Shown piece after piece: positions 1-2,980 of a stretch of DNA of 64,000 bases (its first letter is position 1; the number at the start of each line of letters is the position of its first letter). The notes beneath the pieces were generated by a model. It made no database searches, was not told the DNA's origin, and saw only the letters and a list, made by a program, of their open reading frames with translations. This DNA is from Actinocorallia populi. GTDB lineage: Bacteria > Actinomycetota > Actinomycetes > Streptosporangiales > Streptosporangiaceae. Made by a program: the position numbers and the translations under genes. The DNA lies in NCBI RefSeq assembly GCF_002995495.1, contig NZ_PVZV01000002.1, forward strand, positions 930,001-994,000, given 5' to 3'.

Positions 1-151
1 ACCCCTGAGCGCACAGGCGGTCCACGACGGTGCCCTTGCCGGAGTCGCCGAAGCCCAGATCGACGACGATGCAATGCCGGGGGACGTCCCCCGAACCCCC
101 GCGAGGGCTCGACCGATCCTCGCTCCGCTGCGGTCGTTCGAGCCCTGTCAC
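1..151 (-). CDS. Adenylosuccinate-synthetase-like protein (PurA paralogue), N-terminal 50 residues only
   Basis: The frame runs off the left edge. About 30 residues in, it reads CIVVDLGFGDSGKGTVVDRL, which is the phosphate-binding loop of the adenylosuccinate synthetase fold (PurA has GDEGKG here; this has GDSGKG). The GTG start overlaps the TGA of the upstream VWA gene (GTGA), so the two are translationally coupled. The loop differs enough from housekeeping PurA that I read it as a paralogue dedicated to this operon, with an unknown substrate. The first 28 or so residues are low in character and are partly encoded by a hairpin repeat (105-145). Classification as PurA-like is fairly firm from the loop, but only 50 residues are visible and any reaction is inference. 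Confidence 0.6.
   Translation of the reverse strand, partial: MTGLERPQRSEDRSSPRGGSGDVPRHCIVVDLGFGDSGKGTVVDRLCAQG
105..145. repeat. Bulged hairpin / REP-like element
   Basis: Arms GGGCTCGA (105-112) and TCGAGCCC (138-145) are exact inverted repeats. Inside them GACCG (111-115) pairs with CGGTC (131-135), leaving an asymmetric bulge. The loop carries the motif CTCGCTCCGCTGCGG. This looks like a dispersed palindromic repeat rather than ordinary coding sequence, although it lies inside the predicted N-terminus of the PurA-like gene. I found no second copy in the window, so its being dispersed is inference. Confidence 0.45.
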
Positions 152-1113
152 AGCCGGGTGGTGCCGCGCGGCAGGTCGTCCGACAGGTCCAGCGGGGTGC
201 TCGCCTTGGCCAGGGAGCCGCGCCGCAGCGGCGCCAGGGCGCGGGAGACGACCTCGCCGGCGTTCGAACCGACCTCTTCCAGGTGCTCCAGGCCCTCGTC
301 CAGATCGATCGCGTCCTCGGCGAGGCCGATGGTCAGGGCGATGGTCTCGCAGACGGCGTCGAGGTCGTCCAGGCGGATGACGTTCTGGCCCAGGAGGCCG
401 CGCCAGAACTCCAGCAGCTTCGGGTCCTCGGCGTGGAACGTCCCGGTGGGGATGAAGTAGTAGACGTCGAAGCGCTCCTTCAGCTCCGCCACGAGGTCGG
501 CGATGGGGATGTCCCGCTCCAGGTCGTCACCGATGATCTTCTTCACCTCGGCCTTCTTGACCTTGGAGTAGGCGAGCTCGTCGCCCATGAGGAAGAGGTA
601 TCCGCGCTTGCCGCGCTTCTCCCAGCAGTCCATCGAGGTGTGCCGGGCCATGAAGTACATCGCCAGCTCGTAGGACTCGGTCATCTGGCCGCCGCCACCG
701 CCCTCCAGCAGGATGCGGCCCAGGTCGTCGTCCATGCGGTTGTCGGACTCGAACTGCCCGACCTGCAGCGGGGCGCGGTCGCAGGTGGCGTCGCCGATCG
801 CGCCGAACAGGATGTGCGGGTCGGTGACGTAGCCCTTGCGCAGGATCAGGCCGAGCAGCTCGGGCAGCTTGGTCTGCAGGGCGCGCGGGACGTTGCGCAT
901 CGAGCCGGTGACGTCGAACAGCACCGCGATCGCCAGCGACTCGGGGTGCTCGTCGTTGTCGCGGCTCTCCCGGACGGTCACGCCGTGCGGGTCGAGGGCG
1001 GGGTGGACGTGCCGGGCGCCGCTGTCGGAGTGGGCGAAGGCGCTCGCTCCGGTGGCCCTGCGGTAGTTCGCCGCGGCGGCGTAGACGTCGGTGGACCAGG
1101 TGCCGCTTCCCAT
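148..1113 (-). CDS. VWA-domain protein of the Nudix/J-kinase/PurA-like operon
   Basis: 321 residues, starting at an ATG with AAGGAGAA just upstream; the longer in-frame extension is the shadow of the kinase gene. A von Willebrand A domain is visible: the metal-ion site D67-V-T-G-S71 follows a hydrophobic strand, a glycine run with a threonine (EGGGGGQMT) supplies the third ligand, and a later MGDE strand the fourth. No signal peptide or membrane segment is seen, so it should be cytoplasmic, binding a protein partner through a divalent metal. It lies 26 bases after the kinase gene and is coupled to the PurA-like gene. VWA proteins often act as scaffolds or chaperone-like partners of ATPases; the partner here is probably a product of this operon. 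No specific function is known to me. Confidence 0.8.
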   Translation of the reverse strand: MGSGTWSTDVYAAAANYRRATGASAFAHSDSGARHVHPALDPHGVTVRESRDNDEHPESLAIAVLFDVTGSMRNVPRALQTKLPELLGLILRKGYVTDPHILFGAIGDATCDRAPLQVGQFESDNRMDDDLGRILLEGGGGGQMTESYELAMYFMARHTSMDCWEKRGKRGYLFLMGDELAYSKVKKAEVKKIIGDDLERDIPIADLVAELKERFDVYYFIPTGTFHAEDPKLLEFWRGLLGQNVIRLDDLDAVCETIALTIGLAEDAIDLDEGLEHLEEVGSNAGEVVSRALAPLRRGSLAKASTPLDLSDDLPRGTTRL

Positions 1114-1139
1114 GGGGTTCTCCTTGTGTCGCGAGGGGT

Positions 1140-2105
1140 TCAGAGCTTGAAAGGGCGGAAGGTGCGTGGCCCGTACAGGCGCTCCAGGAGCTCGTCCAGC
1201 TCCGTGAGGAGACGCCAGGCGTTCGAGGGGCGCTTCTTCTGCGCGGAGAGAGTGCAGCCGCGCGCGAAGTTCCGCAGCGGGTCCGGGATCTTCGGGCCCA
1301 TCAGGTAGGTCATGCAGCGGGTGGCCAGGAACAGGTCGGTGGCGGGGGAGGCGGGTTCGCGTCCCGGCACCTCCGGCGGATACCAGGACGCCCTGCCGCT
1401 CACCAGCGCCGGCACCCGTCCGCCGGAATCGACGGTGGCGGGCACCGAGTAGCACCAGTCGACCAGTACGAGGCCGTGCTGCTCCGGGTGGATCATCACG
1501 TGTTCGGGCAGTACCGCGCCGTGCAGGACGCCCGCCCGGTGGGCGAAGCCGAGTGCGACGAGCAGCCTGCGCCACATCCAGGCGGCGTCCCGCGGATCCA
1601 CTCCGTCCGGCCGGGCATCGTGCACTTCGGCGAGCGTGTGGAAGCCCTCCAGCCGGACGAGGATGTGGCCGCTGCGACCTTCGTAGCGCAGGCTTTCCAC
1701 GAGTTCCGGTACGTACGGCAGGAACCGGGGATCTCCGTTCGCGCGCAGCTGCCGCAACGCGACGGCCTCGCGTTCGAGCAGGTCGTTGTCGGCCGCGTTC
1801 CGGGGGAGCTTGAGGACGGCGGGGCCGCCGTCGAGGGTGACCTCGAACAGGTCGGCCAGATCGCCTCTGGCCAGCTTCGGCCCCACCTCGTAGACGTGCT
1901 TCTTGGTGGTGATGGTCGTGCTCTCCCCGCGGCCGTACGCGCGCCACTTGGCGGTCAGCCGGGTGAAGGCCGCGCCGTCCATCCCGGTGTCCGGGTGCAG
2001 GAGGCGGGCCATCCGGTGGTAGACCCGCACGGCCTCGGCCGGGTCCGGGCCGAAGATCTCCGTGGCGGGACGGTCGAGCAGCGCCAGCACGGCGTCCCTG
2101 TTCAT
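1140..2105 (-). CDS. J-domain / degenerate protein-kinase-fold fusion
   Basis: 321 residues. Residues 20-57 resemble helices II and III of a DnaJ J-domain, with the HPD tripeptide at 37-39 after a basic helix (YHRMARLLHPD). A protein-kinase fold follows: the ATP-binding lysine is K99 (VLKLPR), E113 is a candidate helix-C glutamate, and the catalytic loop reads LHGAVLPEHVMI where HRDxKxxN is usual. The metal-binding strand is VLVDW in place of DFG. The catalytic aspartate and the loop lysine and asparagine are therefore altered, so this is an atypical kinase or pseudokinase. The gap to the Nudix gene is 8 bases and to the VWA gene 26. The HPD suggests contact with DnaK. Function is unknown. 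Confidence 0.72.
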   Translation of the reverse strand: MNRDAVLALLDRPATEIFGPDPAEAVRVYHRMARLLHPDTGMDGAAFTRLTAKWRAYGRGESTTITTKKHVYEVGPKLARGDLADLFEVTLDGGPAVLKLPRNAADNDLLEREAVALRQLRANGDPRFLPYVPELVESLRYEGRSGHILVRLEGFHTLAEVHDARPDGVDPRDAAWMWRRLLVALGFAHRAGVLHGAVLPEHVMIHPEQHGLVLVDWCYSVPATVDSGGRVPALVSGRASWYPPEVPGREPASPATDLFLATRCMTYLMGPKIPDPLRNFARGCTLSAQKKRPSNAWRLLTELDELLERLYGPRTFRPFKL

Positions 2106-2113
2106 CCGAGCTC

Positions 2114-2908
2114 CTATCGCAGGTCGTCCTCGCTGCTGGGCCGCAGCAGCGCAGGGTGCAGCAGGCGGGCGTCGCCGGCGCGGTAGAGCCGGGCGCGAGG
2201 GCCGCCGCGCCGCCCGCCGGTCGGGGTGGTGTCGCCGGTGCCCTCGACGAAACCGGGGACCGACAGCACCTTGCGGTGGAAGTTGCCGGCGTGCAGCGGC
2301 TCGCCCCAGACCGACTCGTAGACCGCGCGCAGCTCCGGGATGGTGAAGGCCTCTCCGAGGAAGGCGGTGGCCAGCGGGGTGTATTCGAGCTTGGCGCGGG
2401 CCCGCTCCAGCCCGTCGGCGAGGATCCGGGAGTGGTCGAAGGCGAGTTTCCGGGTGGTCCCGGGAGCCTGGGAGGCGGCCGCGGTCAGCCGGAGGGACTC
2501 CACCGGCACCCAGGAGGCGTCGGCCGCGTCGCTGCCGGCGTGCGGGTCGGGCATTTCGGGTCCGAACGCCAGGTACGCCACCGAGATCACGCGCATGCGG
2601 GGGTCGCGCCCCGGCCTTCCGTAGGTGCCGAGCTGCTCGAGGTGGACGCGGCCCAGCGCCCGGACGGTGAGCCCGGTCTCTTCGGCGAGCTCCCGGGCGG
2701 CGGCCTCCTGGAGGTCCTCCTCGCCCTCGACGGCGCGCACGAACCCGCCGGGCAGCGCCCACTGCCCGGTGAAGGGCGGCGCGGCCCGCCGGATCAGCAG
2801 GACGTGCAGCACGCCGTCGCGGATGGTGAGGGCCACGACGTCCACCGTCACCGCGATCGGGTCGTAGCCGCGCGGATCGTACTCCGCGAGGAACTCCTCT
2901 TCGGTCAT
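2114..2908 (-). CDS. Nudix-family regulator, NrtR type (Nudix + winged helix)
   Basis: 264 residues. An N-terminal Nudix hydrolase fold carries a box of the form PGGFV...REL.EETGL (about 53-80) with a short insertion. The last 100 residues (KLEYTPLATAFLGEAFTIPELRAVYE..., then FHRKVL) match the winged-helix DNA-binding half of the NrtR group, which control NAD-related genes and sense ADP-ribose-like ligands. I chose the ATG at 2908, which has AGGTGG seven bases upstream; an in-frame GTG at 2938 lacks a ribosome site. It is the first gene of the operon, and a strong nested palindrome lies just upstream (2948-2980), so autoregulation is likely. The regulated pathway and whether the enzyme activity survives are not shown. 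Confidence 0.82.
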   Translation of the reverse strand: MTEEEFLAEYDPRGYDPIAVTVDVVALTIRDGVLHVLLIRRAAPPFTGQWALPGGFVRAVEGEEDLQEAAARELAEETGLTVRALGRVHLEQLGTYGRPGRDPRMRVISVAYLAFGPEMPDPHAGSDAADASWVPVESLRLTAAASQAPGTTRKLAFDHSRILADGLERARAKLEYTPLATAFLGEAFTIPELRAVYESVWGEPLHAGNFHRKVLSVPGFVEGTGDTTPTGGRRGGPRARLYRAGDARLLHPALLRPSSEDDLR

Positions 2909-2947
2909 CCGGCCACCTGCTCTTCCCCGTCCGTTCACCGACTGGAC

Positions 2948-2980
2948 GTTCTCAAACTGAGTAATACTCGATATGAGAAC
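2948..2980. promoter_or_regulatory. Nested palindromes, candidate operator of the Nudix regulator
   Basis: GTTCTCA (2948-2954) and TGAGAAC (2974-2980) form an outer inverted repeat. Within it GAGTAATACTC (2959-2969) is palindromic around its central base. The site is unusually AT-rich for this genome and lies between the divergent Nudix regulator and cutA. A dimeric winged-helix regulator fits this symmetry. Binding is inferred. Confidence 0.5.

Follow-up and report, generated by a model that had tools for sequence, protein, structure and literature searches.

Organization and Conservation of the Operon

What a Nudix regulator, a kinase-like protein with a J-domain, a von Willebrand factor A (VWA) protein and a relative of adenylosuccinate synthetase (PurA) may do together is the question raised by an operon of Actinocorallia populi (genome size, 8.25 Mb). 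The operon lies at the left end of a 64,000-nucleotide stretch (G000:C2:930001-994000, i.e., positions 930,001 to 994,000 of contig NZ_PVZV01000002.1), referred to here as the window. Based on the comparison of actinobacterial, plasmid and phage loci, the four genes make up one conserved unit, and are proposed to form a self-regulated module for the modification or repair of a purine nucleotide, linked to nicotinamide adenine dinucleotide (NAD) or ADP-ribose. The probability of this reading is put at about 40%; its pathway link to NAD/ADP-ribose is moderately supported, and the reaction itself is what we infer. The window contains the following features:

2948–2980, no strand assigned: predicted operator GTTCTCA-N4-GAG-N5-CTC-N4-TGAGAAC before the Nudix gene (pattern search, locus comparison)
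2114–2908, minus strand: gene of the Nudix/NrtR-like regulator, 264 amino acids, first in the operon (Pfam NUDIX, 8.2e-22; NrtR_WHD, 3.8e-12)
1140–2105, minus strand: gene of the J-domain pseudokinase, 321 amino acids (AlphaFold model, PknB match, HRD replaced by HGA)
1926–2105, minus strand: J-domain part of the pseudokinase, residues 1–60, with HPD at 37–39 (helices flanking HPD)
148–1113, minus strand: gene of the VWA protein, 321 amino acids, of a family shared with phages (structural model; phage relatives belong to phrog_2971)
1–151, minus strand: 5' end of the PurA-like gene (444 amino acids), with the remainder at G000:C2:928817-930000 (Pfam Adenylsucc_synt, 6.5e-59)
76–145, no strand assigned: dispersed repeat in the 5' end of the PurA-like frame, outside the conserved system (absent from 19 aligned relatives)

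The four minus-strand frames of the first-pass annotation, which was made from the letters of the window, stand as described there, and the intergenic gaps of 8 and 26 bases and the GTGA overlap were borne out. An end of the PurA-like frame just past the window edge would have spoken against the first-pass proposal, but the frame runs on to complete a gene of 444 amino acids (G000:C2:928817-930151). The first ~23 amino acids of its product derive from the 70-bp repeat, which has other genomic copies at 76–86% identity, and form an N-terminal extension lacking in the 19 relatives. No RNA element reached the Rfam gathering scores within L009:10700-15200.

The first-pass proposal would also have fallen if the four genes were not kept together in other genomes, which is not so. 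In the class sample (246 genomes), the search with the VWA protein and the profile searches for the PurA-like protein (limit, 1e-75) and the pseudokinase (limit, 1e-15) each matched the identical 20 genomes. In 396 genomes of the phylum, the PurA-like profile at 1e-60 gave two matches, the window genome and G095, both of which carry the operon. A further scan with the VWA protein, using one genome per species, yielded at least 572 confirmed relatives in bacterial genomes; the best 80 loci were kept, and these fall under 24 labels (22 genera and two labels of unnamed metagenome-assembled genomes). The order Nudix, J-domain kinase, VWA, PurA-like is kept in 76 of these 80 named actinobacterial loci. 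Of the other four, three (L089, L138 and L140) are cut by contig ends, and L120 lacks the kinase. In the class sample, all four genes are present at 16 of the 20 loci, while L039 and L040 are cut by contig ends and L047 has no Nudix gene.

Start codons overlap the preceding stop codon by 1 or 4 bases at 56 of 76 Nudix/kinase and 58 of 78 VWA/PurA-like junctions. No flanking family is common to more than four genera within 6 kb on each side of the 80 loci (the flanking families were not all named); the flanks are common within bacterial families and differ between them. The conserved order, together with the lack of a widely shared flanking gene, thus indicates that the unit comprises four genes. 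That these genes form one operon, as was first proposed from the window, and that it has an operator of its own, is strongly backed by the locus comparison, namely by the overlaps and by a predicted operator at 73 of 77 loci.

Some loci deviate in their structure. At L048:9315-10270 (genome G132 of f17), a deletion has left a hybrid of the pseudokinase gene (5' part) and the VWA gene (3' part), and the Nudix and PurA-like frames remain. This broken locus was left out of alignments A2 and A3, and L040 and L048 were left out of the kinase model. At L120, from a Hamadaea metagenome genome, the order is Nudix-VWA-PurA-like without a pseudokinase, and 23 bases separate Nudix from VWA. In Actinoplanes italicus (L110), about 2.5 kb holding another open frame separates the Nudix and kinase genes.

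Plasmid and Phage Copies

Relatives of the VWA protein were found in 21 plasmid records and in 207 of 50,697 phage records, 188 of the latter being Mycobacterium phages, including laboratory phages of Mycobacterium smegmatis mc2 155. The PurA-like protein matches 226 phage records, the weakest of which (about 28–32% identity) are unsorted from ordinary PurA. Mycobacterium phage Sebata encodes a kinase (gp260), a VWA protein (gp261), a small protein (gp262) and gp263, which is labelled '2-aminooxy adenylosuccinate synthetase'; with the models of the actinobacterial families, gp260 scores 298 bits (kinase), gp261 scores 311 bits (VWA) and gp263 scores 418 bits (PurA-like). On plasmids of Rhodococcus and Tsukamurella, the order is kinase-VWA-PurA-Nudix. 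An Agrobacterium vitis plasmid carries a divergent NrtR-type Nudix gene (winged helix present) followed by a weak kinase match (55 bits), VWA and PurA; an Acetobacter plasmid carries a kinase (50 bits), VWA and PurA without a Nudix gene, a Variovorax plasmid has kinase-VWA-PurA, and Vibrio and Rhizobium phages have the VWA-PurA pair. In the Nudix/kinase spacer of the A. vitis plasmid (L199:5778-5898), repeated TTAGAC/GTCTAA half-sites were seen by eye, perhaps an operator of another sequence.

Metagenomic virus contigs gave 490 relatives, 80 of which were kept; with the earlier scan, 82 viral loci were available. A PurA-like frame is present in 74 of them, a VWA frame in 75 and both in 70, and in all 70 the two lie on the same strand with the PurA-like gene downstream. 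Upstream of the viral pair, the J-domain pseudokinase is found at 30 of the 82 loci and another family, V95, which replaces the pseudokinase upstream of VWA (L202:6216-6935, L203:5675-6466), at 22; the two never occur together, and 30 loci, some of them cut stretches, have neither. V95 has no Pfam or PHROG match.

NAD and ADP-Ribose Genes near the Phage Copies

The link to NAD, which had been drawn from domain types alone, receives independent support from phage gene neighborhoods. Up to 6 kb on each side of the 82 viral loci was scanned, and genes were found for NAMPT (12), NadM-Nudix (11), NADAR (4), macro (1), NadA (1) and NadK (1). Any NAD/ADP-ribose gene or SLOG-like frame, with query loci counted, is present at 13 of 22 V95-type, 3 of 30 pseudokinase-type and 1 of 30 neither-type loci. 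At L230, NADAR was missed by frame calling and was found by whole-record search, which makes this a fourth pseudokinase-type case. A typical run is NadM-V95-VWA-PurA-like-NAMPT, and L263 reads VWA-PurA-like-NADAR-NAMPT. One phage contig (L224:7889-11849) has genes for the PurA-like protein, NADAR, quinolinate synthase (NadA) and NAD kinase close together.

Chance was assessed on 50 whole records, namely the Vibrio and Rhizobium phages and 48 of the 82 virus contigs, for which length was the main criterion and which do not include L263 and L268. NAMPT occurs in 20 of the 50 records; in 10 of these 20 its distance from VWA is at most 6 kb, against 2.0 expected at random (0 of 200,000 simulations reached 10). 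For contigs longer than 100 kb, the figures are 4 of 13 against 0.57 (P 0.0018). NADAR occurs in 13 of the 50 records, and in five of them it is again no more than 6 kb from VWA, against 1.06 expected (P 0.0018). Whole-record search of the Vibrio and Rhizobium phages gave no NAMPT match. For the V95 type the NAD link is strong; it is weaker for loci with the pseudokinase, the type to which the actinobacterial operons belong, and there it rests on the NrtR-type regulator and the four phage cases.

The PurA-Like Enzyme

Pfam analysis upholds the assignment of the protein to the PurA family (PF00709; 6.5e-59, 200 bits against a cut-off of 27). Its scores lie below both cut-offs of the NCBIfam purA equivalogs (150.2 against 402 and 124.2 against 395.55 bits). 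The window genome has its canonical purA elsewhere (C1:313255), which scores 610.8 bits, against 200.1 for the PurA-like protein.

For the site comparison, 79 actinobacterial PurA-like proteins were set against 25 canonical PurA proteins of the phylum, and 70 of the 74 viral copies (those of 300–520 amino acids) were aligned as well. Asp13, Lys16, His41, Gln224, Thr239 and Asp333 are conserved in all 79 actinobacterial proteins, and all 79 carry the substitutions Asn38 to Gln, Thr128-Thr129 to Ser-Cys, Thr301 to Gln and Lys331 to His. In the 70 viral copies, Asp13, Lys16, His41 and Gln224 are invariant, Asp333 is kept in 67, Asn38 is Gln in 69 and Thr301 is Gln in 70, and position 129 is Cys in 53, Val in 14 and Thr in 3; the simple patterns xQGxxR and GSC/TG fit 60 and 53 of the 70, respectively. 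Arg143 is not kept in the family. The loop TTGRxRR has become xQGxxR, one residue shorter, with Thr301 and Arg303 lost. One of the two Arg residues after Arg303 is kept, and gap placement assigns it to 305 or 306 in different alignments; the claim is therefore limited to the loss of Thr301 and Arg303. In one viral copy of 840 amino acids (L213:3403-5925), an intein-like insert was noticed by eye directly after the GGSQAGH motif.

We take Asp13, Lys16, His41 and Gln224 to be the catalytic residues, Asp333 to belong to the guanosine triphosphate (GTP) site, Thr301 and Arg303 to the aspartate loop, and Asn38, Thr129, Arg143 and Thr239 to be ligands of the 5'-phosphate of inosine monophosphate (IMP), as in E. 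coli PurA. With these roles, the phosphoryl-transfer machinery would have been kept, and aspartate binding and part of 5'-phosphate binding would have been lost.

A phylogenetic tree with 83 rows (canonical, 25; actinobacterial, 14 of the 79; named plasmid or phage, 9; viral, 35 of the 70) shows the VWA-linked family and canonical PurA split at 100/100 and places the actinobacterial chromosomal copies in one clade (96/95). With midpoint rooting, the Rhodococcus and Tsukamurella plasmid, Sebata and Variovorax plasmid copies branch just outside this clade. The tree has long branches, and its rows hold neither PurZ nor archaeal PurA.

Because the catalytic residues are kept and the aspartate loop and several phosphate-site residues are not, the protein is neither an ordinary PurA nor PurZ. 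According to section 24 of PMC12884076, Ser replaces Asp13 of PurZ in 147/147 phage sequences; Asp13 itself is kept in 79/79 actinobacterial and 70/70 viral proteins, and identity with PurZ was rejected on this ground. As phrog_1211 and GenBank records (e.g., NC_041993) bear the label '2-aminooxy adenylosuccinate synthetase' (PurZ) on a protein that keeps Asp13, this label looks wrong.

The Nudix Regulator and Its Predicted Operator

In the first gene product, the NUDIX domain and the NrtR winged helix were recognized as annotated before. The 31-bp core TTCTCA-N4-GAG-N5-CTC-N4-TGAGAA precedes the Nudix gene at 73 of 77 loci (called gene starts, up to three mismatches, 280 bp upstream) and is lacking at L068, L095, L098 and L110. 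In control windows of the same loci, the pattern occurred 4 times in 3,073, and some of these four may be true operators of loci with a misplaced start. In the window genome, a single site at up to three mismatches was found; it precedes the four-gene operon and serves no NAD genes. Scanning of eight whole genomes placed a site before the operon in seven and none in G078, the operon of which lacks the Nudix gene. A wider NrtR regulon was considered and dropped, as four further places (2–3 mismatches, three genomes), against one for the reversed-pattern control, were taken as chance; GAGTANTACTC alone was rejected as a search pattern because it is too short. A dedicated repressor acting at the predicted operator is the natural reading of this distribution.

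The RDPR motif is present in 77/77 regulators; as a sign of release by ADP-ribose, it is only suggestive. By pattern, the Nudix box is intact in 72 of 77 regulators; within the 17 of alignment A4, it is eroded in four (L037, L038, L042 and L044). Ligand binding, rather than hydrolysis, may therefore be the conserved property. The window genome also has a second NrtR-like Nudix gene (G000:C1:337282-337930; L002) between purC-like and hisC-like genes, named by eye, and no NAD gene was seen adjoining it.

The J-Domain Pseudokinase and the VWA Protein

The first-pass view of the second gene product as a chaperone-recruiting kinase fold with altered catalytic residues agrees with its model, which points to a J-domain layout with HPD and a kinase fold without the catalytic Asp. 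Pfam gave weak APH and kinase matches. In the AlphaFold model (mean confidence pLDDT 95.2, built from 57 sequences), residues 61–321 match PknB (5u94; Z 24.9, root-mean-square deviation (rmsd) 2.0, 222 residues aligned), and residues 1–60 are helical, with HPD between helices 22–36 and 44–58. Pfam DnaJ is weak in two relatives (0.0061 and 0.025) and has no match in the window protein. By pattern, HPD is present in 76 of 78 actinobacterial and 25 of 30 viral proteins (five are without it).

The catalytic HRD is replaced by HGA in 18/18 aligned kinases, and an HGA-type loop is found by pattern in 78/78; the letters HRD occur 47 times in these 78 pseudokinases, but none of these occurrences comes as near as 10 residues to the loop. 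In actinobacterial and phage members taken together, His37 is invariant (57/57) and Pro38 and Asp39 are conserved at 90% or more, while Lys99 and the HGA loop are absent from the conserved list; selection thus keeps the J-domain rather than catalysis. Motifs were compared by eye with the named bacterial pseudokinase families as given in part of PMC12599244 (ActPs1-3, GLW, CP1, DYD and DLHK); the beta3 Lys is invariant in 18/18 of the present pseudokinases, unlike in ActPs1-2.

The third gene product had been described as a metal-dependent adhesion domain. The VWA fold and an intact metal-site motif support the first half of this description. The model (pLDDT 89.5, from 65 sequences) matches an integrin beta I domain (Z 16.2, rmsd 2.6, 187 residues aligned), and the motif D-V/I-T-G-S-M (DxTxS) is present in 80/80 actinobacterial copies; of the 75 viral copies, 70 have a pattern like it. 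The adhesion part was not supported: none of the 80 VWA relatives has a hydrophobic N-terminal stretch, and the family is one shared with phages. The window protein has no Pfam, NCBIfam or PADLOC match, and two phage relatives match phrog_2971, which is listed as of unknown function.

Proposed Function and Alternative Explanations

In the proposed module, a rise in ADP-ribose or a related ligand would release the Nudix repressor from its operator. The PurA-like enzyme, using GTP, would then phosphorylate a hypoxanthine-type base at its 6-oxo group, in a substrate larger than IMP (a deaminated NAD- or ADP-ribose-type nucleotide, or a nucleotide on a macromolecule, is a candidate), and would attach an amine that is not aspartate. 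As a scaffold, the VWA protein and the J-domain pseudokinase could recruit Hsp70, either for assembly of the enzyme or for presentation of its substrate. Bacteria under NAD stress, and phages facing NAD depletion, would use the module to repair or reshape the NAD/ADP-ribose pool. A fuller version, in which such a PurA-fold GTP-dependent ligase with its NAD/ADP-ribose-type substrate, non-aspartate amine and VWA/J-pseudokinase scaffold arose or was long kept in large phages and was adopted by actinobacteria under an ADP-ribose-type switch, as a new enzyme system of the phage-bacteria contest over NAD, is tentative and, taken as a whole, rather doubtful.

Several observations weigh against an NAD-linked nucleotide-modifying module. 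The regulator reaches 124.4 bits, where the NCBIfam equivalog model of the ADP-ribose-responsive NtrR demands 400. Its matches also include AraR, and the ligand of an NrtR relative may be a different one. No NrtR_WHD match was obtained for the Nudix genes next to the Rhodococcus and Tsukamurella copies. Few of the pseudokinase-type phage loci have NAD/ADP-ribose neighbors (3/30 and L230), and this is the type of actinobacteria. In Sebata, no NAD gene is annotated within 5.0 kb before or 2.9 kb after VWA, most neighbors there being unnamed. NAD genes are frequent in large phages, and the contigs are partly related, so that the clustered cases are not independent events. In addition, the actinobacterial operons carry no conserved fifth gene, and the proposed substrate leans on residue roles in E. 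coli PurA.

The chief rival is a conflict module, i.e., bacterial phage defence triggered by an NAD-derived signal and, in phages, exclusion of rivals or counter-defence, with a secondary link to NAD. The patchy spread (20/246 genomes), the plasmid and phage copies and the NrtR-type control speak for it. The kinase part has weak matches to anti-phage kinases in PADLOC and NCBIfam (MkoA, 3.5e-11; PD-T4-6, 2.1e-9; Mad6; PglW), and the Nudix part matches candidate PDC-S07 at 2.6e-6; Nudix regulators and vWA proteins also occur together in the systems predicted to counter ADP-ribosylation in section 31 of PMC9503650. However, no nuclease, membrane or other toxic effector was recognized by Pfam in the four genes (the flanks were not scanned for defence systems), the kinase lacks the catalytic Asp, and its scores are far below the cut-offs (MAD6, 29.6 against 460; PglW, 19.2 against 990). 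The sharing of flanks within families also speaks against it. A conflict role is judged unlikely as the main explanation, and it may be compatible with the NAD-linked module.

Synthesis of a second messenger or alarmone, with the PurA-like protein making a signalling nucleotide and the pseudokinase/VWA pair as its receptor, comes near the first-pass interpretation and appears improbable. A dedicated regulator with a non-catalytic partner does resemble a regulated device, but the four genes hold no further recognized effector or receptor domain, and the kinase was not detected in 52 of 82 viral loci (some stretches are cut). Modification of nucleic acid bases in the manner of PurZ would agree with the phage occurrence and with the PHROG name; it is quite improbable, given that Asp13 is kept throughout, against the Ser reported for PurZ in PMC12884076 (section 24), and that the bacterial operon has no polymerase gene. 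An ordinary second PurA for purine salvage under stress, which PF00709 membership might suggest, is scarcely credible, as it was rejected on the site table and the tree, and the canonical purA elsewhere in the genome, the family-wide replacement of the aspartate loop and phosphate ligands, and the constant VWA partner all speak against it.

Comparison with Known Systems

Among the matches listed from open full-text papers, none describes one system in which a relative of adenylosuccinate synthetase is combined with VWA, NrtR, a J-domain kinase or NADAR, and such a report may be in print elsewhere. In PMC6112128, a paper on tubercidin, 'adenylosuccinate' and 'Nudix' refer to the host PurA and an unrelated Nudix hydrolase. 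The proposed module offers a concrete and testable identity for phrog_2971, for the non-PurZ phage proteins called PurA or PurZ, and for at least 572 bacterial VWA loci. If the PurA-like enzyme does make a new nucleotide of the NAD/ADP-ribose network, purine and NAD biochemistry would gain a new reaction, and the conflict between phage and host a new move.

With PurA (PF00709), the enzyme shares the fold, Asp13, Lys16, His41, Gln224 and the GTP-site Asp333; it differs in the xQGxxR loop, in Asn38 to Gln, in Thr129 (mostly Cys), in the loss of Arg143, in Lys331 (His or Cys), and in forming a separate clade. PurZ and PurZ0 of phage 2-aminoadenine synthesis are likewise phage-borne PurA relatives, but have Ser where the present family has Asp at position 13.

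Like NrtR regulators, the first gene product combines a Nudix domain with the NrtR winged helix and has its own operator-like site, but the one genomic site serves this operon and not NAD genes. Its motif differs from the mycobacterial NrtR motif GTTTTCGA-N7-TCGAAAAC, as given in part of PMC6800001.

The closest published system, in section 31 of PMC9503650, is that of Nudix regulators and vWA proteins with ADP-ribosylglycohydrolases (ARG), for which reversal of viral ADP-ribosylation is predicted. The Nudix regulator and vWA protein in one neighborhood are common to both, whereas the four-gene set has no ADP-ribosylglycohydrolase or phosphatase and has instead the PurA-like protein and the J-domain pseudokinase. 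The word 'adenylosuccinate' has 0 occurrences in the text of PMC9503650, and no PurA relative is named there with the ARG-centred systems. The abstract openings of the literature on phage NAD reconstitution (NAMPT and NadM; NARP) make no mention of the VWA/PurA pair; the likeness to these pathways lies in gene neighborhood, as the phage pair is often found among NAMPT and NadM genes.

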